Shown: positions 23,101-44,544 of the stretch, piece by piece
Numbering within the stretch: the first letter of the stretch is position 1
How the letters are laid out: every line of letters starts with the position of its first letter
Source: a virus
Virus record (IMG/VR): IMGVR_UViG_3300035183_000067
Coordinates: 1 to 46,692 of that record
Reading direction: 5' to 3' (one strand)
DNA: 46,692 nucleotides
The notes under the pieces: generated by a model
Told to the model about the DNA's origin: nothing
Databases searched by the model: none
The model's input: only the letters and a program-made list of their open reading frames with translations
Translations under genes and position numbers: made by a program

Positions 23101-23931
23101 ATGCAAATGCAAGCCTATCTTGAGAAGAAAGCTAAACTTCAAAGCCAAGGCAGATATGAAAGTCTTGGGCAGGTATTCAGTGAAACAGACAAGCACATGC
23201 CTAACTATAGAGTTGCTCCTAGGATTGCAGAGAAAGAACTCTCTAGAGTCCTAGGAAACAAAGCTGGAAGCATTGTGTCTAGAGGCGCTTCTATTGTGAT
23301 GCGCGCTCCTTTGATTAACACGTTCGGAAGATACAAGTACGGACGTGCTGCATCCCTTGTTCACATGGCAAAGGATTTGATTAAAGGAGATATGAAAACC
23401 AAAGCAGAAGCTCTAGATAAAATCGCTGCCTTGGCTGTTGCAGTCTATCTAGTTTATCCTCTTCTCTCTAAAATCACGTCCTACCTCACTGGAGAGAACA
23501 TAGAAGCAGAGAAGTTTGGGGGATCAAAGGTACTGCAAACTTTCTATGATTTTGCTAATGGGGATAAAGATTATGATAGAGTGCTCAGCCTGTTCTGGCA
23601 GATGCCTCCATTGACTAAAGCAGGGGTTGAGCTTGCTTCCAATAGAGAGCTGTTTACTGGAAAACCTGTAATTTATCCCGGACAAGATATCGAAGGCAAG
23701 GGAATAGACTTGCTGGAGTATATCATGAAAAATGTTCCGGTTTTCCAGATGGGGGCAGCTCCGACTTACTTTGCCAAAGACCCAGAAGAGTTTTTGCTAC
23801 AGCAATTGGGAATGCGTAAGGTAGAGACAGAAGAAAGAAAAAAAGCTATTGCGAAGAAAATGAAGCAAAGACAGCTCAGACAACATTTGATGCAACGTAG
23901 AAAACGGGAAAACAAGAGGCAGGAAAGATGA
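20128..23931 (+). CDS. Large internal virion / ejection protein
   Basis: 1267-aa protein, the largest in the window. ATG 20128 is preferred to TTG 20122. The N-terminus carries a duplicated motif, IPDFSKVPLVE then IPDFSAVPLVS, which occurs at the N-terminus of several podovirus ejection proteins. A membrane-compatible segment lies near residue 1110 (ALAVAVYLVYPLLSKITSYL) and the tail is extremely basic. I see no lytic transglycosylase motif. It probably forms the envelope-crossing DNA channel. It overlaps the ATP-grasp gene by 4 bases. Confidence 0.78.
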   Translation: MSDIPDFSKVPLVESPKEDSIPDFSAVPLVSEQKPASSKPKTDKKSLLEVGKKIAEPVVGVAEFGIGSILDIPQGLVAAGERLGAGTASFLSGKGYATGSAAAEKARPLSKYIPSYELKTETAKKIGEVFEKGVDTVADLASTTFRMALGQRVPSKALGESDNVKAFVSDAIGAGMSVAAAKGVLSIRAKVPKKSSAQELKSSGQETGIYPIRGHEEIPVVMIKDHYDPTAIPPRPIYGPLPNGKVLEVAPFDPKGKLSPESYEANVKAALAITENAFRREQGIELKKDPLHGNYVNAMKQLGLSRAYADLEAQKAKEPGLKPAFDDKLWKNKEHEILDEHLDNLLENSFLPMWGKTHTSDIVKGLEDAGIGKETILSILPENASWESAASQEAINRFASQVAKGEDWYVLDQGTGQVTPLVTVDRVDRRARGSEIIIKRKGAGSNEFEIIDTGPDVMTNWIEGAINRWAPKVDPKALGGVGKKGFGQGGAVDPRVLAEALAKAGRSAEEIVDYLNKEYGDAIRNIAPAIASRALSNQKDVTEGIKNLSSNLPTNSKSTSVFGGFEVFEDTPIKVLNSENITNEFYKLANKSILDKLTILDTLKKIPKDELEILSSEDFYHALEADQANLTPTQRALRDKYITPLREELVRIYNKLKDANLDPDVDASTYVPRIVPKYNKLFDPDNPIASGIRQGTTSLGAKPGPLKSRKMMALVDEQGNRKIVEIDGRKIFAFDEQGKPFLVVETDRVPKKGQEIGGFRLEDATTKEIEANTPVRYNKNALVNFLYSVERMRRAERELDFLNTLKSSPEWRTIAVPFGEGIPPLGWAEAENPALRGWYIEPRIREALDDFAGKGPSDVVAFLEGVNRIIVGSLFINPVPHLLNITDHWFTQRGLTGWVTPWGLKRLIDTAPIAAKEVLTQGPLYREFLANGASLQWARVLTQDFYQKLLPQLEKDPGFVEIAKAVGKSPAKLVRSLYRGASHIMWALSDVMQMQAYLEKKAKLQSQGRYESLGQVFSETDKHMPNYRVAPRIAEKELSRVLGNKAGSIVSRGASIVMRAPLINTFGRYKYGRAASLVHMAKDLIKGDMKTKAEALDKIAALAVAVYLVYPLLSKITSYLTGENIEAEKFGGSKVLQTFYDFANGDKDYDRVLSLFWQMPPLTKAGVELASNRELFTGKPVIYPGQDIEGKGIDLLEYIMKNVPVFQMGAAPTYFAKDPEEFLLQQLGMRKVETEERKKAIAKKMKQRQLRQHLMQRRKRENKRQER

Positions 23932-25247
23932 ACATTCTTTTGATTGATAGTCAATCCTGCTTTCTTGATTTCGCTCTTCGTTGCAGAGAAGCAGGACACA
24001 ACATCAGGTGGTTTGTTGGTCCTAACAAGGACTTTAGCAGATCACTTACTGGGCTTGGGTTCAACATGAGGGTTCCTAGTTGGGAACCCCACATGAGGTG
24101 GGCAGACTTGATTGTCCTATCAGACAATGCCAAGTATCTGCACGACCTTGAGTCCTACAGGAACAAAGGATTCCCTATTTTTGGTCCTAACAAAGAGGTT
24201 GCTTCTTGGGAATTAATCAGGAAAAAAGGACAAGAAGTTCTAGCCAAGCACGGCATTGAAATCATTCCTGCTGCCTCTTTTAGAAACTATGATAAGGCTA
24301 TTGCCTATGTAAAAAGCACAATGAAAAGATACGTCTCCAAGCCTAACGGAGACGCAGACAAGGCATTGTCTTATGTTTCTAAATCTCCCGCAGATTTGGT
24401 CTTCATGCTAGAGAAGTGGAAGAAGAATGGGAAGCTAAAAGATGAATTCTTCCTGCAAGAATTCCGTCCCGGCATAGAGGTTGCCGTAGGCGGCTGGATG
24501 GGATTAAATGGATTCTCCCAGTGGTGGTGTGAGAACTTTGAGCACAAGAAGCTGATGAATGACGACAAGGGTGTCAACACTGGAGAGATGGGCACAGTCC
24601 TTAAATATGTTAAGGAGAGCCGCCTTGCTGACTATCTCTTGAAGCCTCTAGAAGCAGAACTCATCCGGCAAGGATATTCTGGCTATATTGATGTGTCTGC
24701 TATCATAGACAAAAATGGAAGGATTTGGCCTCTTGAGTTTACTTCAAGACCGGGGTGGCCTCTATTCCAAATTCAACAAGAAGTCCACAGAGGAGACCCA
24801 GCAGAGTGGATGTTGGATGCCTTGAACGGAGAAGATACCTTTGAACCTTCTACTGACATCTCTCTTGGTGTCGTCGTAGCGATGCCGGACTTTCCTTACT
24901 CTAGACTCACTAAGAAAGAGTGCTATGGATATCCGATATATGGTATAGATAATCTAAGCATCAGGAAACATGTTCACCCTGCCGAATGTGCTTGGGACAC
25001 TGCACCAGCAGAGGAAAATGGAAAGATTGTTGAAAAAGAGATGCTGGTGACTGCTGGAGATTATGTTCTCATCTGTACTGGATCGGCTTCTACGGTGGAA
25101 GAAGCAAAAGAAAAAGCCTATAAAATTGTGGAAAAGGTTGAGCTTCCTAATAGTCCTATTTATCGCACGGATATTGGATGCAGGTTGGAGAAACAACTTC
25201 CTGAATTGCAGAAATTGGGCTTTTGTACGGAGTGGAAATACAAATGA
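23928..25247 (+). CDS. ATP-grasp ligase, PurD-like
   Basis: 439-aa protein with the domain order of phosphoribosylamine-glycine ligase. The N-terminal part is Rossmann-like (MNILLIDSQSCFLDFALRC, GPNKEVASWE). The ATP-grasp core has KPNGDADKALSYV as the Gly-loop region, then QEFRPGIEVAVGGWMG and the metal/ATP-binding PLEFTSRPGWPLFQIQ. A C-terminal PurD-C-like domain follows. The family joins a carboxylate to an amine via an acyl phosphate. It is odd that it sits among virion and lysis genes, away from the minus-strand amidoligase cluster. Substrate unknown; it could modify a virion component or salvage purines. Confidence 0.8.
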   Translation: MNILLIDSQSCFLDFALRCREAGHNIRWFVGPNKDFSRSLTGLGFNMRVPSWEPHMRWADLIVLSDNAKYLHDLESYRNKGFPIFGPNKEVASWELIRKKGQEVLAKHGIEIIPAASFRNYDKAIAYVKSTMKRYVSKPNGDADKALSYVSKSPADLVFMLEKWKKNGKLKDEFFLQEFRPGIEVAVGGWMGLNGFSQWWCENFEHKKLMNDDKGVNTGEMGTVLKYVKESRLADYLLKPLEAELIRQGYSGYIDVSAIIDKNGRIWPLEFTSRPGWPLFQIQQEVHRGDPAEWMLDALNGEDTFEPSTDISLGVVVAMPDFPYSRLTKKECYGYPIYGIDNLSIRKHVHPAECAWDTAPAEENGKIVEKEMLVTAGDYVLICTGSASTVEEAKEKAYKIVEKVELPNSPIYRTDIGCRLEKQLPELQKLGFCTEWKYK

Positions 25248-26583: not shown

Positions 26584-26612
26584 AGAAAGCCCCTTTCGGG
26601 GCTTTCCTTTTT
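26584..26612 (+). terminator. Intrinsic terminator between converging genes
   Basis: GAAAGCCCC-TTTC-GGGGCTTTC followed by CTTTTT. The 9-bp stem and T-run suit termination of the rightward transcript. On the minus strand the same hairpin is followed by TTTATTTC, so it may also stop leftward transcription after the reductase gene. Confidence 0.9.
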
Positions 26613-28485
26613 AGAGATTACATCCGCCTGCTGTGCAAGCTAGTTCTTGACTCGAAACAGTATTGTCCTCCTTCTCATAGAAATCATTCCAATCAAAGAC
26701 AGGCATCTGAGCAACCATCTTTTCGTAGGTCTCCTTGTCAATTTCCTCAAAAGGTGCTTGCTTATAAACGTGGTCTGTGTGGGGCAAGAAGCTAACCCCA
26801 CTCATCTCATCGAAGTGTTTGTACACCCAAGCACCAACCTCCAGCCACTCGTGGTCTTTGACATAGACAGTAATTGAAGGCTTGTGCTCACACCAATGAC
26901 GCTGGTACAACAGCCAGTGCTCTAGCTGTTCTACAGCAGTCCTGTCGTCTCTGAAGACTGCTCCCTCCGGGGCTTTTTGAGGAAAGGAGAAGACAGTCGT
27001 TGTCTCTTCCTTACCAAAAGCAGGTTCGTGAGGCACACCAACAGACTTCAAAAAAGAAGTCAAAGGGTCCTTGTTATCCTGTCTGATCCTGCGGATATAG
27101 TATTTGCTATATCTAGGATGAATCCCCGGAGCAGTTCCTGCCAACTCAGAAACAGTGCCGCTAGGTTTCACACAAGTAATCGCAGCAGACTCTGGGATTC
27201 CCAATTTGGAAGCCCAGATTCTGTTGACCTCTCTTGCGTGATCTCGTAGCTTCTCAAGCATTTCAGGCAAATTGACATCTTTCCTAGTTCCGTTTGTCAA
27301 ACTGTTGTCCATAATACCAGTAAGACTAACCCCAAGCAACCTCTCTTCTTCAGTGTTTTTCTTCCACCCCTCACTCAAGAATTGGAAATCTGTGAGAGTA
27401 GCTTGTATAGTTCCAAGAATGGTAGCAATTTCAACCTTACGTTTCAAGGACTCAAAATCATCATTCTCCCTAATGATCACTTCAGTCAAGTTACAAAACT
27501 GCTTATCCCTTAGAATGATCTCAGAGCAAGGATTACATCCATAATTGAGATTCGGGTCTCGACGACCCCACCTCGATGCTTGCTTCCTAGCAGCAACCCG
27601 ATTGAAAATCCCCCTCTCACCAGACTTGGACTTCACAAGAGAAAGCCATTCCTCCAAGAAAGTCTCTGCATCTGGTTTCTCTGTGTAGGCAACACTGTTG
27701 TTGGCGAGTGCCCTCTGAGAATTTTCTTCCCACCACGCTCCTACTTTAGCTTCCCTCATCCTTCTATCAGTAAGATTGGAGAGACTAATTAGAGCGGAGC
27801 GACGAACGCCTCCTACCACAACAACCTCACCAATCATGCACATGATGTCATGGACTTCAATTGAAGTCAGTTTCCTTCCCGCCGCATTTTTGAAAACTCG
27901 AATAACGTAGTCAAACAGTCTCCGCAGAGGCTCCGGGCCGGAAGCGCGTCCCCCAAACGTATTAAGCCGCGACCCAGCCGGACGAATTCTTGAGTAGTCA
28001 ATCTTCGGAATGTCTCCTTCCCACAACGAAGACAAGAGCTTTTTAAAGGCTTTCGCCCATCCAAGTTTGCTGTCTTGAACAACAATTACATCCTCCACTT
28101 CCTTGAAAGTCTCTGGAACGGCGGGGAGATTTGCAATCTCCTGCCTCTCACAAGAGAACCCCACCCCAGTGCCATTCATCAAAATGTAGAGCGTCTCACT
28201 AAAAGCCCGTTTAGTGTTTACTGCAAGGTATGCACAGTTGTAAGCAGCAATGTTGTCCCTCTTGACTGCTTCTCCAGCAGTCATAAGAAGACGCATAGAA
28301 GGAACTACTTCCAAGTTCAGAATTGCTTTCCTTGCAAAGTCAAGAGGCTCTCCAACTCTTTCTTCCAGAAACTTGATAAGACGATCCACAGTTTCTTCCC
28401 AAGTTTCTCTCCTACCTTTCTCTGGGAGATACCGGGCATACCTACTCTTGTGGATTACACTTTGATACAAGTTAAGTGTAGTCAT
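26611..28485 (-). CDS. nrdJ: Class II (B12-dependent) ribonucleotide reductase
   Basis: 624-aa enzyme that converts ribonucleotides to deoxyribonucleotides. It has the SMRLLMTAGEA and YNCAYLAV region with the first active-site Cys, the NPCSEI motif mid-protein, and the C-terminal shuttle CTAGGC with two Cys five positions apart, as in monomeric adenosylcobalamin-dependent enzymes. No small-subunit gene is present, which fits class II. ATG 28485 lies inside the previous gene's end. Confidence 0.88.
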   Translation of the reverse strand: MTTLNLYQSVIHKSRYARYLPEKGRRETWEETVDRLIKFLEERVGEPLDFARKAILNLEVVPSMRLLMTAGEAVKRDNIAAYNCAYLAVNTKRAFSETLYILMNGTGVGFSCERQEIANLPAVPETFKEVEDVIVVQDSKLGWAKAFKKLLSSLWEGDIPKIDYSRIRPAGSRLNTFGGRASGPEPLRRLFDYVIRVFKNAAGRKLTSIEVHDIMCMIGEVVVVGGVRRSALISLSNLTDRRMREAKVGAWWEENSQRALANNSVAYTEKPDAETFLEEWLSLVKSKSGERGIFNRVAARKQASRWGRRDPNLNYGCNPCSEIILRDKQFCNLTEVIIRENDDFESLKRKVEIATILGTIQATLTDFQFLSEGWKKNTEEERLLGVSLTGIMDNSLTNGTRKDVNLPEMLEKLRDHAREVNRIWASKLGIPESAAITCVKPSGTVSELAGTAPGIHPRYSKYYIRRIRQDNKDPLTSFLKSVGVPHEPAFGKEETTTVFSFPQKAPEGAVFRDDRTAVEQLEHWLLYQRHWCEHKPSITVYVKDHEWLEVGAWVYKHFDEMSGVSFLPHTDHVYKQAPFEEIDKETYEKMVAQMPVFDWNDFYEKEDNTVSSQELACTAGGCNL

Positions 28486-28642
28486 CTTCCCCCAATTCCC
28501 GCAGAAGAAAATCAAATTTATCCTCGATGATGTCTTGGAATCTTTCTACTATATCCTCAGAAGTAATGCCAAGAAGTTCTAATAGAAAGCACTCCTCCTC
28601 TCTGGAAAGTTTTTCTTTCAGTTCCACAAACGTAGTAGTCAT
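28472..28642 (-). CDS. Small acidic hypothetical protein
   Basis: 56-aa acidic helical protein (MTTTFVELKEKLSREEECF, ELGEDDYT end). ATG 28642 overlaps the phosphoesterase stop (ATGA), and its own stop overlaps the reductase start. Tight coupling supports a real gene. The function is unknown. Confidence 0.6.
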   Translation of the reverse strand: MTTTFVELKEKLSREEECFLLELLGITSEDIVERFQDIIEDKFDFLLRELGEDDYT

Positions 28643-32228: not shown

Positions 32229-32750
32229 TCAATACGGAATGTCGTCAGTCAAGTCTTCAAGACCAGTAACAGAGAGATCAAATTTTCCTTTGTCTGCTTC
32301 CTCCTCTTCAACTTCAAACACCCAATTGCAGAATTGCTCTGCCAACTTCATCACCTCTTCGGCAGACGGAATGTTTTTTTCCGTCTTCAACAGGTCAATG
32401 GCTGCCGACAGGCTGGACTGCCGAACGATGAGCCGTTGACGGAGAGCCCTTTCTTCCGGAGTTTCATACCGGCTATTATCCTGTTTTTGAGGAACTGCCA
32501 CAGGAACACCTCCTACCTTAGACACATCTACCCACTCCCAAAATCCACGGTCGTTCTTCTCTGGCTTGACTTCCAAGACATCTCCTGCCTTAACTTGCGC
32601 CAGCTTGGCGAACACGCCCGGGTTTGAGAAAGACATTGCAGTGTACGTTCTTTGCTGTCCTCCTTGTTTGTAAGTAACGTTAATTTTTTGATAAGTGTTT
32701 TTACCTTTCTTTACAGTTTCCGTGCTGATGTCTTCTACTTTTACTTGCAT
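32229..32750 (-). CDS. ssb: Single-stranded DNA-binding protein
   Basis: 173-aa protein. An N-terminal OB-fold-like region (about 1-75: TYQKINVTYKQGGQQRTYTA, FAKLAQVKAGDVLEV) is followed by a helical part and an acidic C-terminus ending LTDDIPY, very close to the DDIPF tail of bacterial SSB. It lies directly after DNA polymerase and overlaps it by 10 bases. A perfect consensus promoter lies about 150 bases upstream, inside the polymerase gene. Confidence 0.75.
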   Translation of the reverse strand: MQVKVEDISTETVKKGKNTYQKINVTYKQGGQQRTYTAMSFSNPGVFAKLAQVKAGDVLEVKPEKNDRGFWEWVDVSKVGGVPVAVPQKQDNSRYETPEERALRQRLIVRQSSLSAAIDLLKTEKNIPSAEEVMKLAEQFCNWVFEVEEEEADKGKFDLSVTGLEDLTDDIPY

Positions 32751-33493
32751 GTGATCTCCTCATTTCTATCAAACTTTTTCAAGTTCAATAGATTCTTACC
32801 ATAAGAAACTTCCCCGGCCATAGGCACATTGAAGGGAAGTTTAAACACCTTCTCAAAGTTCTTGGGCAAATCCTCGAATACTTGTTCCAGTGTTATACAG
32901 ATATTATAACACAATTCTGGGTCGTTGTCAACATCCAACTGGATATCGTCGTGAACAGTATTGAAGAACTTGATCCTTTCTGGATATTCAGGCATTCTTG
33001 AGATTCTATTGAAGGCACTAATCCTTGCAATCATCATCAAGTCTGCACTGAACCCCTGCACTGGATAATTTAGAATTTGTGTTCTAGGCCATTCCATTTC
33101 TCCTTTGTAGTTGGGATACTGCTTGAACCTAAACGTCCTCCCGGTCGGGATGGTAAGAAATCCTTTGTTACGAATCGTCTCCCTGATGATAGTAGTATGC
33201 CACTTTGCGAGGCCCTTGTACTTCTTGTAGGTCCTCTCAATAACTTCTTCCCAGAATTTCAAGTCGCCAATGCCGTCAAAATCAGGGTCAACAGAATAAC
33301 TATAGGCACTTCCCCCATAGATAAGACGAAACAGATACTTCTTAGCAATGAGCCTTGAAGGAAGTCCGAACATCTTTTGGTTGTTTTCGTGTGCATCTAC
33401 TCCCTCTACAATTTCCCTAATAGCAACTTCATCTTGAGACAGATAAGCGGCAGCTCTCCACTCAAGCGCTTTTGCATCTACCTTGATTAGCAT
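32741..33493 (-). CDS. DNA polymerase A, C-terminal part (palm/fingers)
   Basis: 250-aa polymerase half. Motif A is VDAKALEWR (Asp6), motif B is R47-x3-K51-x3-F55-x3-Y59-G60, and motif C is HDD at 181-183. It is in the same frame as the upstream half, and its ATG follows that half's TAA directly. GAGG lies six bases before the ATG, so separate reinitiation is possible. Aligned to family A enzymes, the TAA replaces exactly one residue in the loop before motif A. The gene is thus either a split polymerase or one interrupted by readthrough or mutation. Confidence 0.92.
   Translation of the reverse strand: MLIKVDAKALEWRAAAYLSQDEVAIREIVEGVDAHENNQKMFGLPSRLIAKKYLFRLIYGGSAYSYSVDPDFDGIGDLKFWEEVIERTYKKYKGLAKWHTTIIRETIRNKGFLTIPTGRTFRFKQYPNYKGEMEWPRTQILNYPVQGFSADLMMIARISAFNRISRMPEYPERIKFFNTVHDDIQLDVDNDPELCYNICITLEQVFEDLPKNFEKVFKLPFNVPMAGEVSYGKNLLNLKKFDRNEEITCK
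32903..32931 (-). promoter_or_regulatory. Perfect sigma70 promoter inside the polymerase gene
   Basis: On the minus strand TTGACA (32926-32931) and TATAAT (32903-32908) are separated by exactly 17 bases. Both boxes are consensus despite lying in coding sequence (around residues 187-196 of the C-terminal polymerase half). Transcription would start about 145 bases before the SSB gene and give extra mRNA for SSB, tRNA, dUTPase and nucleases. Confidence 0.75.
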
Positions 33494-34657
33494 TTAATAC
33501 CTCGTGATAATAAACTCCCGAACTCCTTCCTCCACGTTTTGCATGTTAGGATTGCTACTAGACAATCTTCCAGTAGCAGCAACAGATTGGTTCAACTGTC
33601 CGTGCAAGATGTTGTCCTTGATTTCATACTCTTCAAGCATGTTAGGGAAACCAAGATAATAGCTGTCAATTGCTTTCATCAATTTGCTCCTCTTCAAGAG
33701 GATGTTGATGATGTGTTTCACCTTTTTGTTCCCTTTCAGAGACAGCAGAATCTTCTCGTTGGTTTTCCAATACCCCGGCTTAGCGCACTCTGTCTTCTTC
33801 AGAGGTTCTACCAAGCGAGGCATTTTGACTTCTTTGACTACCCAATGTTCCCTAACACGCTCTTCACCAGACTTAAGAACCTTGGTGTATTTCTCCCGGA
33901 CTTTATACTTGAGAATCCCTCCATATAGACAAGCACTGATGTGATCATCAGAGCTCCAATTGATGTGGGGATTGGGGAAAAACTTAAACAACTCTTGATC
34001 ACACTTCTTAACTTCTTCCTGAAGCTCTTTTCCTTTTCTCAAGAGTCCTTCCTTGTCTAGGAGCATTCCATTCCATTCCATCTCACACAAGATTTTCAAG
34101 TCCAACATCTGGAGCTTAAACAGACGCATCTTCTCTGGTCTGTCTTTGAACCACTCCATTTGTTTCTTGAAGCACTCTTCTGTTAGACGGACATCCTGCT
34201 CTAGATACTCAACAAGGATTTCTTCTGGGATTTGATCTGTGTTGTATCCCTCTTCCCAATACTTAGCGACTTTGTCTTCTTTCTTCCCAATGCCCCAATA
34301 ATCTGCAACATCATTCAAAGACGGGAGCTTTTGAGTCATGTTCGTCATGAGGAAGTGAGCAACCTGAACATCCCAAATCTGCTTGTCTTTCCACTCCTCA
34401 AATCCATACAGGCGAATCCAATGCAAATCAAACTTGGCATTAAAAGCTACAATAACATCACACGACTTCAGGCTCTCTTTCCAGATATTCCAAAGCTCGT
34501 CTGTCTGTTTCTCAGATTTGTACTTTACTGGAATAGTAACTACGTCTCCGTTGTTAGAGAAGCCAAGATACACAAGCTCGTTGTTAGGATTCCAAGGACT
34601 ACCACTTTGTCTTGTAGTAGTCTCTGTATCAAAGACAAGGTATTTCATGCTATTCAT
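33494..34657 (-). CDS. DNA polymerase A, N-terminal part (exonuclease/thumb)
   Basis: 387-aa half with an intact 3'-5' proofreading domain: FDTE (Asp10, Glu12), FNAKFD (Asn73, Asp77) and YLEQD (Tyr151, Asp155). The thumb/palm follows, up to TGRLSSSNPNMQN. It ends REFIITRY-TAA. ATG 34657 overlaps the upstream stop as ATGA and is preferred over 34672. Together with the downstream half it makes about 638 residues, near the T7 polymerase length (704). Confidence 0.92.
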   Translation of the reverse strand: MNSMKYLVFDTETTTRQSGSPWNPNNELVYLGFSNNGDVVTIPVKYKSEKQTDELWNIWKESLKSCDVIVAFNAKFDLHWIRLYGFEEWKDKQIWDVQVAHFLMTNMTQKLPSLNDVADYWGIGKKEDKVAKYWEEGYNTDQIPEEILVEYLEQDVRLTEECFKKQMEWFKDRPEKMRLFKLQMLDLKILCEMEWNGMLLDKEGLLRKGKELQEEVKKCDQELFKFFPNPHINWSSDDHISACLYGGILKYKVREKYTKVLKSGEERVREHWVVKEVKMPRLVEPLKKTECAKPGYWKTNEKILLSLKGNKKVKHIINILLKRSKLMKAIDSYYLGFPNMLEEYEIKDNILHGQLNQSVAATGRLSSSNPNMQNVEEGVREFIITRY

Positions 34658-34899
34658 GAAAGCCCGTCCCATTCAATATTGGCGCTGTAAATAATCCTGC
34701 TTGCTACTGCCAGTGCCTCTATAACATTAAAGCCAATCTTCCCAAATTCTATCGTATCCTCTGTAGTAGATGCTGCAACTAAGATGGCTTCGATATCTCC
34801 TTTCTTTGCTCTCTCAAGGAGAGATTCCAAAAACTCAACTATCTCTTGGTTAAAGACAGGAGGATTTGTTTTAGGGGAAATTTTTTTAATGTCCGCCAT
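34654..34899 (-). CDS. Hypothetical replication-operon protein
   Basis: 81-aa protein starting MADIKKISPKTNPPVFNQEI. ATG 34899 has AAAGGA seven bases upstream and is preferred over a longer start. The helical middle includes ESLLERAKKGDIEAILV, a pattern seen in small phage proteins of unknown role. Its stop overlaps the polymerase ATG. Confidence 0.65.
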   Translation of the reverse strand: MADIKKISPKTNPPVFNQEIVEFLESLLERAKKGDIEAILVAASTTEDTIEFGKIGFNVIEALAVASRIIYSANIEWDGLS

Positions 34900-36480: not shown

Positions 36481-36500
36481 CACTTCCGTCTTTATGTCAA
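36472..36500 (-). promoter_or_regulatory. Sigma70 promoter for helicase and polymerase
   Basis: TTGACA (36495-36500) and TATACT (36472-36477), spaced by 17 bases on the minus strand. The -35 box overlaps the last codons of primase. The transcript would begin in the AT-rich tract about 105 bases before the helicase ATG. Confidence 0.8.
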
Positions 36501-37253
36501 GAGGTATTTCTTGATCTCGTCTGTACTATACTCCTTGGGGTCTAGAGGAGAAACTACCACGTCTACCTTGTCGAACAGCACAGAAGCCTTTAGAGCCGTT
36601 TTGCGGGCCTCTAGCTGCTTGTCCATATCTAACCATAGGGTCAGGTGAGAAAACCGCTCAGAGAGCGTTCTGATGCGTTTTAGGGGTATTGTAGAGCCAA
36701 AGATAGGCATGGCACTACACACCCTCGAAACCTTGATGGCGCTCACTACGTCTTCCACAAGCACTATCCTTTCTCTATCTCCTTGTCTGTTCTCTAGAAT
36801 GTGATAGATATCCTCCTTGTATCCCCTAGTTATGTACTTAGGTCCAGAGTTCCCAAAGTTCCTTCCTTGCCAAAACAGCAGGTCCCCATTCACATCGAAC
36901 ACTGGGAACACAAGGAGAGGAGCTACTACCAAGTTTTTCTTTGCAAGTCTTACTCCTTCGTCTGACCACCCTATCCTGTTTCCGTGGATTTCCTTAATAG
37001 TGAGTCCATACTTACTCAACCAAGCCAGACCTTTAGGAGCAACACTGTAACTAAAATCATAAGGAAGATTAACATCACTCCGTTCCCTTTCTTTGTTATA
37101 GTTGTTATATAAGGAACTTCTAATATACGAAATCCCGTTAGGGAGTTCGATATATTTACACCCAAAGCACCAAGCGTGGCCGTCTGAGTACCTAGCCAGA
37201 TTATCCCTTGATCCACAATTGGGGCAAGGTTCATGCCTAACGAACTCAGACAT
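36492..37253 (-). CDS. DNA primase, T7 gp4A-like
   Basis: 253-aa primase. The zinc-binding domain uses C10, C13, C29 and C32 (CPNCG and CFGC). The TOPRIM core follows, with VEDVVSA (Glu167, Asp168) and WLDMDK (Asp209, Asp211). It makes RNA primers for the replisome. In T7 this domain is fused to the helicase. Here the two are separate genes. The start overlaps a possible small upstream frame. Confidence 0.88.
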   Translation of the reverse strand: MSEFVRHEPCPNCGSRDNLARYSDGHAWCFGCKYIELPNGISYIRSSLYNNYNKERERSDVNLPYDFSYSVAPKGLAWLSKYGLTIKEIHGNRIGWSDEGVRLAKKNLVVAPLLVFPVFDVNGDLLFWQGRNFGNSGPKYITRGYKEDIYHILENRQGDRERIVLVEDVVSAIKVSRVCSAMPIFGSTIPLKRIRTLSERFSHLTLWLDMDKQLEARKTALKASVLFDKVDVVVSPLDPKEYSTDEIKKYLLT

Positions 37254-37377
37254 TTTTAAACCATTCCTTTAATTTGTTATACCAAGAAGGAGGGAAACTC
37301 CAAAGATTGATTGGCGGAAACTTTAGGTCTGGCCAATTAATCTTTGTCGTTGTCCCACGGGTCGATGTCGAAGTCAT
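37246..37377 (-). CDS. Possible 43-aa protein
   Basis: A short frame filling the otherwise empty gap between the zinc-finger gene and primase. The second half looks protein-like (INWPDLKFPPINLWSFPPSW then YNKLKEWFKNV). The only ATG is at 37377 inside the upstream gene, and no good ribosome binding site is visible. Its stop overlaps the primase start by 8 bases. Confidence 0.35.
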   Translation of the reverse strand: MTSTSTRGTTTKINWPDLKFPPINLWSFPPSWYNKLKEWFKNV

Positions 37378-37585
37378 CGCTGTCCGTTTCGTCATAACTG
37401 ATGCACCCATCCTCTTTTTCTAGATCGTCATATGGACCAATGTTTTGTAGATTATCGTAAGTAATAATGCCTGTGTCTTTTAAACAACTAGAGCACAAAT
37501 CCACAAACTCATCAGTGAACAAGCTCCTTCTTGTCATTTCCCTATCTGTAAGGATTGCATTACAAGCTACACATCGCCCGCTCAT
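37337..37585 (-). CDS. Small zinc-ribbon protein with acidic tail
   Basis: 82-aa protein. CVACNAIL and CSSCLKD form a CxxC...CxxC ribbon in residues 5-37. The C-terminus is very acidic (DSDDFDIDPWDNDKD). Such proteins occur beside primase genes in T7-like phages. GGAG precedes the ATG. Perhaps a DNA-mimic or host-factor binder. Role unproven. Confidence 0.75.
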   Translation of the reverse strand: MSGRCVACNAILTDREMTRRSLFTDEFVDLCSSCLKDTGIITYDNLQNIGPYDDLEKEDGCISYDETDSDDFDIDPWDNDKD

Positions 37586-37587
37586 TT

Positions 37588-38358
37588 TTATTCTCCTTTT
37601 TGTTGTTGTTCTAGAAATTTCTCAATTGCTTCTTTGTACTTCAGAACAGTAGTGCCTTCAATGCCGGGAGCAGAGTTTACTTCAAAGACACAAGCAAGAT
37701 TTTTCTTTTCGTTATACCCTACGTCACAAGCGCCGAAGGTTAGCCCTACTGCCTTGATAGCTTGTTTTGCAGCTTCGGCGCAGCATTCAGGCAACTCTAC
37801 ACCTTCTCTGCAAAACACCCAGTCACCATGATTACGAATCTGATAGTTTACATCCTTAGCCTCCTTTCTTTTTTTCTTCTCCACAAAATCGATTACTTCT
37901 CCGTTGAAGACGTGAATCCTGAATTCTCGTTTCTTCTTAAAGTATTTTGTGTATAACGGAGCATCTGGCAATTCTTTCCCAGAATCTTTATTCCAGATAA
38001 TAATACCACGTCCTCCTTTTCCTGTCAAGATAGTCCTACACACAACAGTATCCCACCCAGAAGCTACTTCCTTGTCTGTTGTCCACTCAGGACAAGGAAC
38101 TTGATGTTCGCCGAACTTCTTGAAAGTTAGGAGCTTATCGCGGGAGATGGCAACACTTTCAGGCGTGTTCAGGATAACTTGGTTGGGCCACCTGTCCATC
38201 CACCAAGCACGCTTGCTATTGCCCCAATTGACAATTGGCCTCTTGAAATTGTTCCTGAACAATCCAAACTGTCTAACCCGTTTTATTCCAAGTGCTTCAG
38301 AAAGTTTTTTTGCTGAGCTTGAATTCATCTTATAAGGATACAAAACAGGTCGCCTCAT
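37588..38358 (-). CDS. ATP-grasp ligase, amidoligase cluster
   Basis: 256-aa compact ATP-grasp protein with the phosphate-binding loop TGKGGRGIII, KYFKKKREFRIHVFNG and the metal-binding FGACDVGYN and FEVNSAPGIEG motifs. Enzymes of this group ligate amino acids to carboxylates, as RimK adds Glu. It is two bases from the class II amidotransferase and heads toward the amidoligase genes, as in phiEco32-like clusters described by Aravind and colleagues. The substrate is unknown. Confidence 0.85.
   Translation of the reverse strand: MRRPVLYPYKMNSSSAKKLSEALGIKRVRQFGLFRNNFKRPIVNWGNSKRAWWMDRWPNQVILNTPESVAISRDKLLTFKKFGEHQVPCPEWTTDKEVASGWDTVVCRTILTGKGGRGIIIWNKDSGKELPDAPLYTKYFKKKREFRIHVFNGEVIDFVEKKKRKEAKDVNYQIRNHGDWVFCREGVELPECCAEAAKQAIKAVGLTFGACDVGYNEKKNLACVFEVNSAPGIEGTTVLKYKEAIEKFLEQQQKGE
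38000..38028 (-). promoter_or_regulatory. Possible internal promoter in the ATP-grasp gene
   Basis: TTGACA (38023-38028), 17-base spacer and TATTAT (38000-38005) on the minus strand. It falls on the conserved Gly-loop codons, so the resemblance may be forced by the protein sequence. It could boost the zinc-ribbon and primase genes. Confidence 0.35.
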
Positions 38359-38359
38359 T

Positions 38360-39658
38360 TTAAGCTCCTTTCACGAGGACTCTAGGGAACAAGGGGTGTG
38401 TGGTGTCCATTTGCTGAGCGATGGAACACTGCGGACAAAAGATAACTTTGTGTGCTTTATTCCAAATTGATCTTGAAATATCTTCACCTTTCACTTCAGA
38501 TTTGCAAATCTCACATCCGTTATTTTTAACCTCTTGGATGTCCTTTTCAGAAAGGTAGTGCCCATTTTTTGAAATGTAATTTGTAACTGTGACAACATTT
38601 TCAACAGAAACAACGTATTTGATTTGAGAGTTTTTAGCTTTGTTTTCCCTAATTTTCGTGACAGTTCCTCGAAGGAACCTAGCCAAGATAATGTTATCTT
38701 CTTCTTTGGAATCCACAACAGAAGACACTTGATACTCACTAGACCACGGAAAAGTTCCTACGACAAGAACTTTCCCTTTACCAATTCTTTTTGTATCCAC
38801 TAATTCAAAGTAAACTGTATTTCCTTCTCTGACAGGAGAATTCAAAAGCCTTGGCTTCTCTTTTACTACTTCGAGGGGTTTCTTTTCTTCTTCTTTGATC
38901 GGAGTAACTTCTACTGCCTTGGCAGGTACTTGAATAATAGGAATTCTGAATTTGTATTCTTTAACGTCCCAGTTGAGGCCGTCTTCAAAAACATCAACAG
39001 AGAACATTACTCCGGGGTAAACTTCTTCAATCTCAAGCCTGACTTGATTCCTTGCACTAATCCATTCCATAGCTCCCTTTTCAGAGGACAGCACAAGGAT
39101 ATCCTCATCCTCATTATATCCCATGAATAAGGGGCGTTCTTTGTTACGAATGAAATTAAGTCTTTCACTTCTTCTGTCATAAAAGACAAAAGCAAATGCT
39201 CCACTAATCCTCTCAAATACTTCTTCATAAGGGAGGTCACAAAGCAGAATAGGAACGATGCTGCTGTCCACCGACAGATTGTGCTCCTTCCACTGCGGAA
39301 ATTCATAGTGATTGTGCAAAGTCCCGTTGTGGACAAGCACAATATCTTTATACCAAAACGGGTGGGCGTTTTCACTGTTAACTTGTCCGCGAGTAGCGGC
39401 TCTATTGTGACCGACAATAGACACTCCACGAGCCAAAGAATCGCGTAAGAAAGAAGTCCCTTGAGAGTTCCCTAGAAAGTTAAATGGGTTCCCGTGAACT
39501 TTGGCAATGGATACCTTTTTGTTTCGATTAATCGTAAATGCTCCCGTTCCGTCTTCTCCCCTGACACTATCCACAATCAGTAGTTGTTTAAAAATGTCCA
39601 GATGATAGGAGAACAGGCCACCTTTTCTAAAACTCGTAACTGAAACAATTCCACACAT
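38360..39658 (-). CDS. Class II glutamine amidotransferase
   Basis: 432-aa protein. The Ntn-hydrolase domain starts MCGIV, so Cys2 becomes the N-terminal nucleophile after Met removal. GHNRAATRG and VHNGTLHN follow, then GAFAFVFYD. It releases ammonia from glutamine. Instead of a GlmS or AsnB synthetase domain, the C-terminal half is an unassigned region ending in a zinc ribbon (CEICKSE, FCPQCS). Ammonia could be passed to the neighbouring ligases. Confidence 0.88.
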   Translation of the reverse strand: MCGIVSVTSFRKGGLFSYHLDIFKQLLIVDSVRGEDGTGAFTINRNKKVSIAKVHGNPFNFLGNSQGTSFLRDSLARGVSIVGHNRAATRGQVNSENAHPFWYKDIVLVHNGTLHNHYEFPQWKEHNLSVDSSIVPILLCDLPYEEVFERISGAFAFVFYDRRSERLNFIRNKERPLFMGYNEDEDILVLSSEKGAMEWISARNQVRLEIEEVYPGVMFSVDVFEDGLNWDVKEYKFRIPIIQVPAKAVEVTPIKEEEKKPLEVVKEKPRLLNSPVREGNTVYFELVDTKRIGKGKVLVVGTFPWSSEYQVSSVVDSKEEDNIILARFLRGTVTKIRENKAKNSQIKYVVSVENVVTVTNYISKNGHYLSEKDIQEVKNNGCEICKSEVKGEDISRSIWNKAHKVIFCPQCSIAQQMDTTHPLFPRVLVKGA

Positions 39659-39678
39659 ATTTACTCCTTTCTTAGGAT

Positions 39679-40695
39679 TTAAACATCACCATTATCTTCT
39701 TCTTTTTTCCTCCTCTTTATTGCTCTCCTGTGAAACTCTGCGAAAGAGATCACAAGATTGTTGTTGTTCTCTTCACAATATTTAGTGAAATCTACAATAG
39801 AATTCGGGGGTGTCACACAATCTTTCACGTTGGAAATGGAACAAGAAAACTCTTTTTCAAATCCTTTTGTAGCAAGTAAAGGCAAAAGATTCCCGAAAAT
39901 CCTTCCTAGAAAGTTGTGGTATTCGCTCTTCACATTCAGATTTACAAGGGTTGTAACTAGATTTTCAAAATTAGTTACTTCCATTGCCGCCTTTTTCAAT
40001 GACAGAATTATATTAATCCAATTTACTATCAAGTCAACGTCTCTTGTTCCATACAAATGCCTGAATTCAACTGTTCCATACCTAAGAATTGGGAGAAGAT
40101 TTAGACCGAGGTATTTTTTCCACTCTTCTATAATGGACTTGAAAGCATGCAAATCATCAATTATAACTTCTGTCAGTTCCTTGTTATTTATTTTAACAGC
40201 ATTATAAATGTGGAGGAAATAATTCGTATTTTGAAGAGGAACACAAAAGATATTATTTTTCCTCTCTCTTCCAACAAATCTATAGAGAAGCCTTTCTGTT
40301 ACATAATACAACAAAACAAAAGATACAAGCTGATTGATATTCATGTCTTGCACATTGACATGAATGTGAATTCCTGTTCTTGACGTGAATTGAGGCTCGT
40401 TCTCTTCCTCTAATGCTTCCATCAATCTATCGAGAGCAAATCTTGCATACTTTGCTGGGATTGGCAAAGAGATAAACTCTCTTCCCCAGTTCCTGAGAGA
40501 GCCGTCTTCCGTGATATCCCAAATGTTAAGTGCTTCCTTATTTCTGATTGGATTACAAATGTTTTCTACTTCTACCTCAATCCCAATGAAACAATCTGGA
40601 AGAGGCGAATTGTTTTCATAAGGAGCCCCTATAAAATCAACAGGTTTGCATGGAGTTCCTTTTCCGAATACCAGATTAAACGGAAATTCTAACAT
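39679..40695 (-). CDS. Amidoligase, glutamine-synthetase-like
   Basis: 338-aa protein of the phage/fungal amidoligase family: FIGIEVEVEN (strand with metal-binding Glu), ITEDGSLRNWGREFIS, RTGIHIHVNVQDM (His pair) and a final YGTVEFRHLYGTRD. The GS-like core activates a carboxylate with ATP and joins it to an amine. ATG 40695 has AAGGAG seven bases upstream and is preferred over a longer frame. It overlaps the next gene upstream by 20 bases. Confidence 0.85.
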   Translation of the reverse strand: MLEFPFNLVFGKGTPCKPVDFIGAPYENNSPLPDCFIGIEVEVENICNPIRNKEALNIWDITEDGSLRNWGREFISLPIPAKYARFALDRLMEALEEENEPQFTSRTGIHIHVNVQDMNINQLVSFVLLYYVTERLLYRFVGRERKNNIFCVPLQNTNYFLHIYNAVKINNKELTEVIIDDLHAFKSIIEEWKKYLGLNLLPILRYGTVEFRHLYGTRDVDLIVNWINIILSLKKAAMEVTNFENLVTTLVNLNVKSEYHNFLGRIFGNLLPLLATKGFEKEFSCSISNVKDCVTPPNSIVDFTKYCEENNNNLVISFAEFHRRAIKRRKKEEDNGDV

Positions 40696-41359
40696 AGAGA
40701 TTCTCCTTGTCAAAGAAATCTTCTGCTTCCTGTAAGAAGTTTTTGTGGCAAAGTTTGAACAATTCTTTTTCCTTGTCTAGCTCCCCTATAACGTTTTGCT
40801 TCCTCAACAACATAAGTTTAACCCCCTCATTAGGAGAGGGAACAAACGCATAATTACTATCTACTGCTGCCGAAAATCGCTTCTGCGAAACAATAGAGTT
40901 GATTGCTTCAGAAGCAGAATAGAATTTCTTGTTGAATGTTTCTAGCATCTCTGACATCGTCCAGCTAAAAGAAAAGCTCTTTAGATTATCAATTAAAGGT
41001 CGCACAGGAGCAAGATAACTATAGTGCAAATGCTCAACAAGCTGTTTTTGCGGATTTACTACATAATGGCTTGCTTTACTAAGGCCCCTCTTCCACTGTC
41101 TTTCTGCATTTCTTACAATATACAAAACACCATCTTTGTAATTAACAAATCCTTCTGGTGTTTTGTGCAATACATTCAAATACTCTACAGGAACTTCCGC
41201 AGAAGTTCTAGGATGATGATAAACAATCGCAAAGATATCTCCCTCCAAATTCATGTGGAAGGAATCAATATAAATCGGGACAATTTCATCTCCTTCTTTT
41301 GACCAGAAGGTAGCTTGTGCATATTTCCTTCTGTAGTCTTCTAAGCTTTCCTCATACAT
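40676..41359 (-). CDS. Unknown protein of amidoligase cluster
   Basis: 227-aa protein without a family I can name. It has a beta-rich N-terminal half (DEIVPIYIDSFHMNLEGDIF) and a helical C-terminal half (LETFNKKFYSASEAINSIV). GGAGG eight bases before the ATG. It lies between the two GS-like ligases with overlaps, so it probably supplies the substrate or a partner of the pathway. Confidence 0.7.
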   Translation of the reverse strand: MYEESLEDYRRKYAQATFWSKEGDEIVPIYIDSFHMNLEGDIFAIVYHHPRTSAEVPVEYLNVLHKTPEGFVNYKDGVLYIVRNAERQWKRGLSKASHYVVNPQKQLVEHLHYSYLAPVRPLIDNLKSFSFSWTMSEMLETFNKKFYSASEAINSIVSQKRFSAAVDSNYAFVPSPNEGVKLMLLRKQNVIGELDKEKELFKLCHKNFLQEAEDFFDKENLYVRISV

Positions 41360-41371
41360 TTCTTTTCCTCC

Positions 41372-42163
41372 TTATTTCGGAATGATGAGAGAATATTTCT
41401 CAACAAAATAAGGAATGTTTTTCACTTTATTTTTGTTAATTGTTTCTTGAATCATTTCTGCATCTTCATCAACAGAGAAACCAGAATTGATAAAGTTAAC
41501 TGCTTGCATCGTTTGGTCATAGACCATTTCCATCAATTCTTTAGACGCAAGCCAGAAGTTACTCAGACTCCGATATTCAATCCCATAATCCTTGTGGCGC
41601 ATCGCTCCTGCTTTCCCGTAAAGTTTCCTGCGCTTTGTGTCTTTATCAATCAAAAGTGCAGGAATTCCTGCAAACACATCCATTGCTTTTGCAAGGGAAT
41701 AATTCAATTCAATGGACTTCTTGATGGACTTAAATCCAATGTGAATGTGCCCTCCCGCACTTCTCAGAAGTTTATTGCTTGCTCTTGGGCGGGGATTAAG
41801 TTGTCCTGTCCAAGCATTGTAATCGGGATCACATCCGAAAACTTTAGCCAAAGGATGTTCAAGTTCTTCTGGAGAAAACTCCGCAGAAGCGGAGATATCA
41901 AGTTTCCATTCCTTCTCCCTTACAAAGGAAGAGAGAAAATCCAAAGTATATTGGACAGATTCCACAAATTCTTCCTTTGTCTTTGCTGGCGGAATGTTAA
42001 ACTCTGCTGCTACATTGTCTTGCTGGATTGCAAATGCTCCGTTAAACTTAAACGGCATTGTTTTTGTTCCCGGGATAACCCCAATCGAGGAACGATACTT
42101 GCCTTCCTTGTCTCTTAGGAAAACTTCAGGATCGCATCCAATTGTTACGTTAGAAAGGATCAT
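41372..42163 (-). CDS. COOH-NH2 ligase type 2, GS-like (phiEco32-like)
   Basis: 263-aa protein. Signature parts are TIGCDPEVFLRD, DNVAAEFNIPPA, AEFSPEELEHP, the RSAGGHIHIGF motif and GIEYRSLSNFW, all expected for this GS-like carboxylate-amine ligase group known from phage phiEco32. It should form an amide bond using ATP. ATG overlaps the class I amidotransferase stop. Confidence 0.88.
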   Translation of the reverse strand: MILSNVTIGCDPEVFLRDKEGKYRSSIGVIPGTKTMPFKFNGAFAIQQDNVAAEFNIPPAKTKEEFVESVQYTLDFLSSFVREKEWKLDISASAEFSPEELEHPLAKVFGCDPDYNAWTGQLNPRPRASNKLLRSAGGHIHIGFKSIKKSIELNYSLAKAMDVFAGIPALLIDKDTKRRKLYGKAGAMRHKDYGIEYRSLSNFWLASKELMEMVYDQTMQAVNFINSGFSVDEDAEMIQETINKNKVKNIPYFVEKYSLIIPK

Positions 42164-42816
42164 AGCAAATACTCCTTGATGAGGTTAGAGCAATATTCTA
42201 CCCCAGGGTGACCGAGGGGCAGAAATTCAGGGTGCCCTTGAATTGCGAGGGCCTTTAGTTCCTCGAAGAATACAATTTCTGGCTCGATAACTTCTCCTTT
42301 CTCTTGTTTCGCTTCTGGAGGAAAGTAAACTTCTCTGTTCCATCCATCCAAATAAGTATCGCTTAATCCTTCTGTCCATGAAATGATCTTCTTCTTCTCT
42401 ACATTCCACGGATACATCATTTGGTGATGAGTAGAAGAGATAGGAATATCTTTTCCGTGAATTGTTTTGATGTAGTGGCTTGCTGTGTGATTTGTTACGT
42501 GTTGAATTAATCTGCCACCAGCCGCTACACAAAGCAATTGAGCACCCCTACAAATCCCCAGAATTGGGATTTTCATGTCCACTGCTTGGCGCACTAGATC
42601 GAATTCTAGGGAATCTCTAAACAAATCTGGTGAACTTGTAAATTTACCCCTAGGCTCTCTATATGCCTTGGGATTAACATCTGTTCCACCTTCAAGGATT
42701 AGAATGTCTCTCGGCTTGAAATCAAAATCGTGGTGCCGAATGACGACATTCTTTCGTGTAATTTCTGGAAAGCATGAAGCGACTCCAAACATTCCTAAAG
42801 AGGTTACAAATCTCAT
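42160..42816 (-). CDS. Class I glutamine amidotransferase (PuuD-like)
   Basis: 218-aa peptidase C26-type protein with a catalytic triad: Cys89 in GICRGAQLL, and His195 and Glu197 in QGHPEFLP. The N-terminal LILEGGTDVNP is typical. Relatives hydrolyse gamma-glutamyl amides such as gamma-glutamyl-GABA. In this cluster it may remove a protecting glutamyl group or deliver ammonia. It overlaps neighbours on both sides by 4 bases. Confidence 0.88.
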   Translation of the reverse strand: MRFVTSLGMFGVASCFPEITRKNVVIRHHDFDFKPRDILILEGGTDVNPKAYREPRGKFTSSPDLFRDSLEFDLVRQAVDMKIPILGICRGAQLLCVAAGGRLIQHVTNHTASHYIKTIHGKDIPISSTHHQMMYPWNVEKKKIISWTEGLSDTYLDGWNREVYFPPEAKQEKGEVIEPEIVFFEELKALAIQGHPEFLPLGHPGVEYCSNLIKEYLL

Positions 42817-43469
42817 TCCTTATCCTCCAAAAGTTTTACTTCTTCACAATATCGCATTGCGTCTTCAAAGTTATCAAATTCGGTTACATGCTCTCTTTCC
42901 TTAACACTTTCCATCGCCTTGTGAATAGACCACCAACGATAACGTCCCTCTTTAAATGGGACAAAAGGATGTTGTTTTTCCAATTCTTCTACAACATCCT
43001 TGAATGTTGCCCCTATAGGAAGAGTTTCCCAAAAATCTGGGCAAATATCGTGACAAGAGCGCTCAATGTTTCCTTGCAGTCTGTTTAGGACTGCATTGTC
43101 AATAACTGATACGTAGGGAAGAAATACGGGTTCCCTATGGTATTCAAAGGGAAGACGCCATAAGGTAGCAAAGAGAAGGATTTCGATTTGGGAGAATTGG
43201 GCGTCCAGAGTAACTGAAAGTTTCTGTTTTTCTTCATCCCAAGTTACTCTTTTCACCATTCGGGATGCTTCAGGAGTATTCAGCAACTGCTCTTGAAAAG
43301 GTTCTAATTTGTTTCCTTGGCAATAAACCCCAAGAGTGATTTCTGGATAATCACTCTTTCCTACTAGGTTCACCCAATCGGAAAAACAAACTCTTGGGAC
43401 ATAGGTTTTTCTTTTGAAATAGTAAAAGACGTTTGTTCTTTCGTAAAGGTCCATTTCTCGAATGTCCAT
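42813..43469 (-). CDS. Unknown protein of amidoligase cluster
   Basis: 218-aa protein with no recognised family (MDIREMDLYERTNVFYYFKR, IEILLFATLWRLPFEYHREP). It is translationally coupled to the class I amidotransferase, which suggests a shared pathway. No catalytic motif is evident. Confidence 0.65.
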   Translation of the reverse strand: MDIREMDLYERTNVFYYFKRKTYVPRVCFSDWVNLVGKSDYPEITLGVYCQGNKLEPFQEQLLNTPEASRMVKRVTWDEEKQKLSVTLDAQFSQIEILLFATLWRLPFEYHREPVFLPYVSVIDNAVLNRLQGNIERSCHDICPDFWETLPIGATFKDVVEELEKQHPFVPFKEGRYRWWSIHKAMESVKEREHVTEFDNFEDAMRYCEEVKLLEDKE

Positions 43470-44495: not shown

Positions 44496-44531
44496 AAAAA
44501 AAAGGGAAGCCTAGCATTTACTAGACTTCCC
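44496..44531 (-). terminator. Intrinsic terminator after first early gene
   Basis: On the minus strand GGGAAGTCTAG pairs with CTAGGCTTCCC around a 6-base loop, followed by eight T. It separates gene 44545-45213 from the next transcription unit. Confidence 0.92.
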
Positions 44532-44544
44532 TAGTTCCGGGCAT

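Follow-up and report, generated by a model that had tools for sequence, protein, structure and literature searches.

The virus record IMGVR_UViG_3300035183_000067 of IMG/VR (hereafter the window, which is the entire record, 46,692 bases) carries seven open reading frames (ORFs), g1 to g7, on its minus strand at positions 37588-43469, and these almost certainly form one further example of the amidoligase cassette found in phiEco32, in LUZ24-like, RIO-1-like, and some crAss-like phages, and in Zobellviridae. The features by which that cassette is recognized are present: the two ligase families PF14395 and PF12224, an ATP-grasp protein of phrog_2599, a class II glutamine amidotransferase (GATase), a Peptidase_C26 protein (hereafter C26), and a g4-type protein between the ligases. 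As a whole, the explanation to which we give slightly better than even odds is a known cassette that follows a gamma-glutamyl-removal logic and whose product concerns an envelope precursor. Two points appear new beyond the published accounts that we found, namely the standing of g4 as a core component and the replacement of C26 by gamma-glutamyl cyclotransferase (GGCT), subject to possible earlier mention in Iyer et al. 2009 or Hardies et al. 2013, with which, according to later papers, the published cassette accounts reportedly originated. The seven genes, in their order of transcription, and the next module downstream are as follows.

g7: 42813..43469, minus strand; 218-amino acid protein without an assigned function, encoded by the gene that opens the cluster
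g6: 42160..42816, minus strand; class I GATase-fold protein, Peptidase_C26 (gamma-glutamyl hydrolase type), catalytic C89/H195/E197
g5: 41372..42163, minus strand; COOH-NH2 ligase type 2, phiEco32-like, glutamine-synthetase-like (GS-like) by family
g4: 40676..41359, minus strand; conserved core partner, phrog_11055-like, with a Tudor/SH3-like N-terminal part
g3: 39679..40713, minus strand; Amidoligase_2, the second ligase, GS/GCS-like
g2: 38360..39658, minus strand; class II GATase (N-terminal nucleophile type, nucleophile C2) with a zinc-ribbon-like C-terminal part
g1: 37588..38358, minus strand; ATP-grasp enzyme of the peptide-ligase type
DNA primase: 36492..37253, minus strand; phrog_47, the next module downstream of the cluster and a conserved cassette neighbor

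The initial annotation of this DNA had described a seven-gene amide-bond-forming cluster with catalytic motifs, and that description held: all of the ORFs lie at the coordinates it gave, their families were confirmed with profile libraries (Pfam, PHROG, and NCBIfam), and none of the five enzymes has lost its catalytic residues, as judged by residue conservation over alignments of 44-48 homologues. The g1 protein belongs to the ATP-grasp family phrog_2599 (E 2.3e-64), with E145-x-R147, D212, and E226-x-N228 kept in 100% of homologues, and by score falls outside the Pfam R2K clade (R2K_2, 14.2 bits against a cut-off of 26.2). The g2 protein matches GATase_6 (E 5.3e-18, 65.7 bits, cut-off 27) and phrog_4736 (E 4e-60); C2 is conserved in 89% and R86, N111, and G112 in 100% of its homologues, which also keep the zinc-ribbon-like cysteines C382, C385, C408, and C411 (87-91%, encoded at window positions 38360-38520). 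No synthetase domain was recognized in g2 by the profile libraries, and its ammonia acceptor is therefore probably another protein. Of the two ligases, g3 matches Amidoligase_2 (PF12224, E 1.4e-13, 51.7 bits, cut-off 22) and phrog_7469, with E46/E48/H116/H118/E216/R218 conserved at 100%, while g5 matches COOH-NH2_lig (PF14395, E 9e-13, 48.5 bits, cut-off 25) and phrog_3815 (E 2e-84), with E13/E54/H139/H141/R189/E196/R198 conserved at 100%. The g6 protein is a Peptidase_C26 member (PF07722, E 1.6e-22) whose triad C89/H195/E197 is conserved at 100%, and its closest solved structures are the glutamine-amidotransferase-like proteins 3fij and 7d4r. Judged from sequence, the cluster thus consists of five intact enzymes and a conserved partner, g4, in a one-operon-like layout beside replication genes.

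Searches for relatives of g5 gave 317 records in the phage collection and, with two short patterns, 476 stretches in IMG/VR. Forty-eight loci from unrelated phages, some of them cut by contig ends, were analyzed in detail, and they contain g5 (48), g2 (47), g3 (45), g1 (45), g6 (44), and g4 (39). The gene order g6-g2-g5-g4-g3-g1 occurs in 16 loci, including that of Citrobacter phage CVT22, and the order g6-g5-g4-g3-g2-g1 in 11, the window included. The cassette occupies 5-6 kb in genomes of 45 kb. Its neighbors are usually primase/helicase and polymerase genes, and the primase family is found near it in 39 loci. The initial annotation's view that the cluster is unusually complete does not survive this comparison, as g1 to g6 are what such cassettes normally contain, and a seven-gene form has already been published as a “peptidoglycan modification cassette” (PMC5498523). 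The cassette, in part or whole, is also named in PMC3890496, PMC10580990, and PMC11945000. The original observation was correct, the system was already known, and the window adds a further member. Variants of the content were also seen: in loci L026, L046, and L048 a second, g1-like ATP-grasp gene separates g6 from g2, so that each of these cassettes encodes two ATP-grasp enzymes, and L085, L070, and L090 have a second g2-like ORF after g3, with a GGCT gene directly before g2. Twelve contigs from bacterial assemblies hold a g5 relative, and nearly all of them hold more of the cassette. In the longer contigs that were checked, it lies next to primase, sigma-factor, or polymerase genes of phage type; the short ones carry too few genes to judge, and no chromosomal operon with product-revealing neighbors was found among the 12.

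The genes g4 and g7, which the initial annotation had counted together as two unknown partners, are of different kinds. The g4 protein has a phrog_11055 match (E 9e-7), and an iterative hidden Markov model search placed its family in 39/48 loci. It adjoins g5 in all 39 of these and g3 in 36/36 where the locus continues, usually with overlapping ends. In ECBP2 and Clew-3, the gene in the g4 slot is a remote relative of g4 by hhalign (90% probability, E 1.8e-6); for the gene in this slot in L020, the relation was not significant. The AlphaFold model of g4 (predicted local distance difference test score, pLDDT, 86.8) consists of a Tudor/SH3-like N-terminal part followed by an alpha/beta remainder. 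Its full-length fold matches are uncharacterized phage proteins only, one of them from the cassette phage CW02, and against the PDB Foldseek gave only Tudor/SH3 hits that cover part of the protein, at E values above 0.01; no function was transferred from them. A sequence comparison of g4 with solved structures gave no match. The nearly invariant residues are G70, R83, R87, and G192 only, which do not look like an active site, and no obvious catalytic residues were seen. The constant position of g4 makes it a core component of the cassette, and the simplest reading is that it may serve to scaffold the two GS-like ligases or to set their specificity. The g7 protein, on the other hand, had no significant match in Pfam, PHROG, NCBIfam, or the phage collection, showed no relation to g4 in a profile comparison, and yielded an unusable AlphaFold model (pLDDT 43). 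Its sole relative, 82% identical and in the same position, is in IMGVR_UViG_3300017461_000005, and g7 accordingly appears to be a lineage-specific extra, private to the window phage and one near relative.

The second point concerns g6. We searched 79 cassette-bearing records over their whole length for C26 and GGCT (PF06094). C26 was found in 62; all 17 records lacking it (13 named phages and four contigs of 42-129 kb) have GGCT, and none lacks both (Fisher p 6e-10). Control searches of 32 random viral contigs, found by a 15-base pattern (relatives of the window's terminase gave only four short contigs), retrieved C26 in 0/32, GGCT in 1/32, and the cassette in 0/32. The GGCT genes share the strand of the cassette and lie within it or next to it, in many cases overlapping g1 or immediately preceding g2; the five that were aligned retain the YG(S/T)L and LEGY motifs. 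In Slicky01 and KZY1, which are sisters on the g5 tree, GGCT and C26, respectively, occupy the same slot directly upstream of g2. The GGCT-only state corresponds to seven changes on that tree, at least four of which are forced by well-supported branches. The replacement of C26 by GGCT is thus well supported in pattern, though not proved against shared ancestry.

Both families remove gamma-glutamyl groups (PuuD, GGCT, BtrG), and because they do, the simplest reading is that the pathway likely passes through a gamma-glutamyl-bearing intermediate. The comparison of 79 phages suggests that the cassette's pathway always ends by gamma-glutamyl removal, and we consider the presence of such a step somewhat probable. 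Several points weigh against this reading and what we build on it. C26 and GGCT are not always alternatives, as 12 of the 62 C26-bearing records have both; a tree-aware pair test had only four supported independent pairs, of which two to three favor GGCT replacement and none opposes it (median p 0.5); and both families also act on other substrates. Further, no activity, substrate, or product of a cassette enzyme is reported in the literature that we found, and the cassette contains no peptidoglycan-specific domain such as a Mur ligase or transpeptidase. The fuller proposal is that an undescribed amide product is made under gamma-glutamyl protection: GS-like ligases held together by g4 would assemble it on a gamma-glutamyl carrier, which either C26 or GGCT could remove at the end. 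In our estimate this proposal has slightly less than an even chance.

In the mechanism that we propose, g2 would free ammonia from glutamine, and g1, g3, and g5 would form up to three amide bonds at the expense of ATP, with g4 holding or aiming the two GS-like ligases g3 and g5. At least one intermediate would carry a gamma-glutamyl group as a carrier or protecting group, to be removed at the end by g6 (or by GGCT in relatives), following the logic of PuuA/PuuD or BtrJ/BtrG. This chemistry of g1 to g6 should be cytosolic, because no membrane segment is predicted in the cluster proteins: no hydrophobic stretch resembling a membrane helix (largest 19-residue mean 1.49) and no export signal was found in g1 to g7. 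More weakly, the product may act early in infection by altering a precursor of the host envelope, be it the stem peptide of peptidoglycan or a different surface polymer. We hold an envelope or peptidoglycan target only tentatively, and favor an envelope precursor slightly over a free metabolite or a protein tag because of the published proposal of an envelope or superinfection role (PMC5498523, PMC10580990, PMC11945000) and the analogy with the MurT-GatD pair of S. aureus, a ligase and a glutaminase that are reported to amidate peptidoglycan (PMC3267633). In phage HP1, homologous genes are transcribed immediately after infection (PMC7082346), which suits a role in takeover.

The same proposal and analogy also speak for a strict peptidoglycan module, in which the ligases would alter the precursor stem peptide by amidation or extra residues and g6 or GGCT would cut gamma-glutamyl linkages in peptidoglycan peptides, so as to prevent superinfection or prepare the cell for lysis. 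That all named hosts of the listed phage matches are Gram-negative is a further point in its favor. However, the profile libraries detected no Mur-type or wall-anchoring domain in the cluster, the proteins lack the membrane or export signals noted above, a crAss-like phage has the same gene set, and the statements in the literature trace to sequence-based proposals, with no experiment found; we consider this strict form rather unlikely. Equally doubtful to us is a small-molecule pathway whose free, peptide-like metabolite would inhibit a function of the host or of rival phages, or counter a defense system. Such a pathway does look complete without a dedicated protein target (three ligases, an ammonia source, and a deglutamylase), protection and deprotection by gamma-glutamyl groups is typical of small-molecule routes such as Puu and butirosin, and the immediate expression of the HP1 homologues would agree with it, but no transporter, resistance, or sensor family recurs among the clustered cassette neighbors. 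Protein tagging, in which the RimK-like ATP-grasp and the GS-like ligases would attach amino acids to a protein of the host or the virion, with g6 or GGCT trimming the tag, is improbable, as three ligases and a glutaminase exceed the needs of known tagging systems, and the NCBIfam RimK match of g1 is far under the cut-off (23 against 143 bits). In its favor, phrog_2599 is annotated as ribosomal protein S6 glutaminyl transferase, and g1 has the ExR motif of peptide-bond ligases (PMC4431377). DNA hypermodification, with the product linked to bases of the phage genome, is very improbable in spite of the cassette's usual place beside replication genes, because the DNA of the cassette phages tf (cut by HaeIII and cloned from RsaI, HpaI, EcoRV, and SmaI fragments, PMC3517423) and U17 (cut by 11 enzymes, PMC11945000) is open to many restriction enzymes, which makes bulk modification unlikely, and no base-modifying family was found by the profile libraries among the seven genes. 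The amide-linked product or tag suggested in the initial annotation, perhaps on DNA, virion, or host envelope, is therefore unlikely to be on DNA, while envelope, protein, and small-molecule targets remain candidates.

In the window, the structural half lies on the plus strand and the replication and early half on the minus strand. The gaps from g7 to g1 are -4, -4, 12, -38, 20, and 1 nucleotides, the g7/g6 junction being an ATGA overlap, and an AG-rich Shine-Dalgarno-like stretch precedes most of the seven starts. We would like to note that the start codon of g3 is uncertain, as the listed TTG at 40713 has no clear ribosome site and an ATG is found at 40695. The number of promoter-like and terminator-like sites was close to chance expectation. 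One strong terminator-like hairpin (13 pairs and a run of T, window 44503-44532, minus strand) separates the first gene of the minus strand from the early genes leading into the cassette. Directly after g1, an 82-amino acid CxxC-type small protein is encoded (37337-37585, minus strand) that is common to L008, L010, L013, and L015 near their cassettes and is possibly a further cassette accessory. A family A DNA polymerase (32741-34672, minus strand) is interrupted by one TAA with an ATG immediately behind it (tattaaatg), so that two ORFs in the same frame result, which leaves a split gene, readthrough, or a sequencing error as candidate explanations; the polymerase is also interrupted in LUZ24-like phages (PMC3890496). 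A ribonucleotide reductase (phrog_367) is encoded at 26611-28515 (minus strand). Among the virion and lysis genes, a PurD-like (GARS) ATP-grasp protein (23928-25247, plus strand) scores far below the purD cut-off and shares 49% identity with a protein of Caudoviricetes MW202796; as a part of the pathway it was rejected, being present in only 3/43 cassette records.

Returning to the gamma-glutamyl-protected route, the exchange of C26 for GGCT and the constant position of g4 translate into testable chemistry: a gamma-glutamyl intermediate, two unrelated deglutamylases, and a g3-g4-g5 complex. If true, the route would be the first chemical constraint on a pathway found in hundreds of phages, whose product has been elusive since 2009. 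If that product prevents superinfection or alters the cell wall, the cassette would count as a widespread means of host takeover among phages under consideration for therapy.

Among known systems, the Puu (PuuA/PuuD) and butirosin (BtrJ/BtrG) pathways resemble the cassette in logic only, and the cassette is not a member of either. In both, an ATP-using ligase adds a gamma-glutamyl group that a C26 enzyme (PuuD) or a GGCT-like enzyme (BtrG) removes, whereas the profile libraries detected no Puu oxidase or dehydrogenase and no aminoglycoside genes among the seven genes of the window. The kinship with phiEco32 families proposed in the initial annotation is borne out, as phi32_80 and phi32_83-86 belong to the ligase, GATase, and ATP-grasp families seen in the window, and the order g5-g4 slot-g3-g2-g1 is common to both phages. 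Where the window has C26 (g6) but lacks GGCT, the reverse holds for phiEco32, with GGCT as gp77 and C26 absent; phiEco32 also has gp87 and gp88 upstream where the window has g6 and g7, two small genes between g2 and g1, and longer g2 and g1 genes. The RIO-1-like podoviruses RIO-1 and PSA-HP1 share with the window the enzyme set, the number of seven genes, and the position beside replication genes, although RIO-1 has the order GGCT-g2-g5-..-g3-g1 and no C26, compared with g6-g5-g4-g3-g2-g1 and C26 in the window. The nearest named relative of g5 (48%) and g6 (35%) is Alcaligenes phage vB_Af_QDWS535 (OK172329), which has the same gene order but, unlike the window, both C26 and GGCT, a 244-amino acid gene between g6 and g5, and no g7. 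IMGVR_UViG_3300017461_000005 (L010 above) is a 27-kb fragment only, compared with the entire record of the window, and contains all seven genes, with g5 94%, g4 86%, and g7 82% identical.

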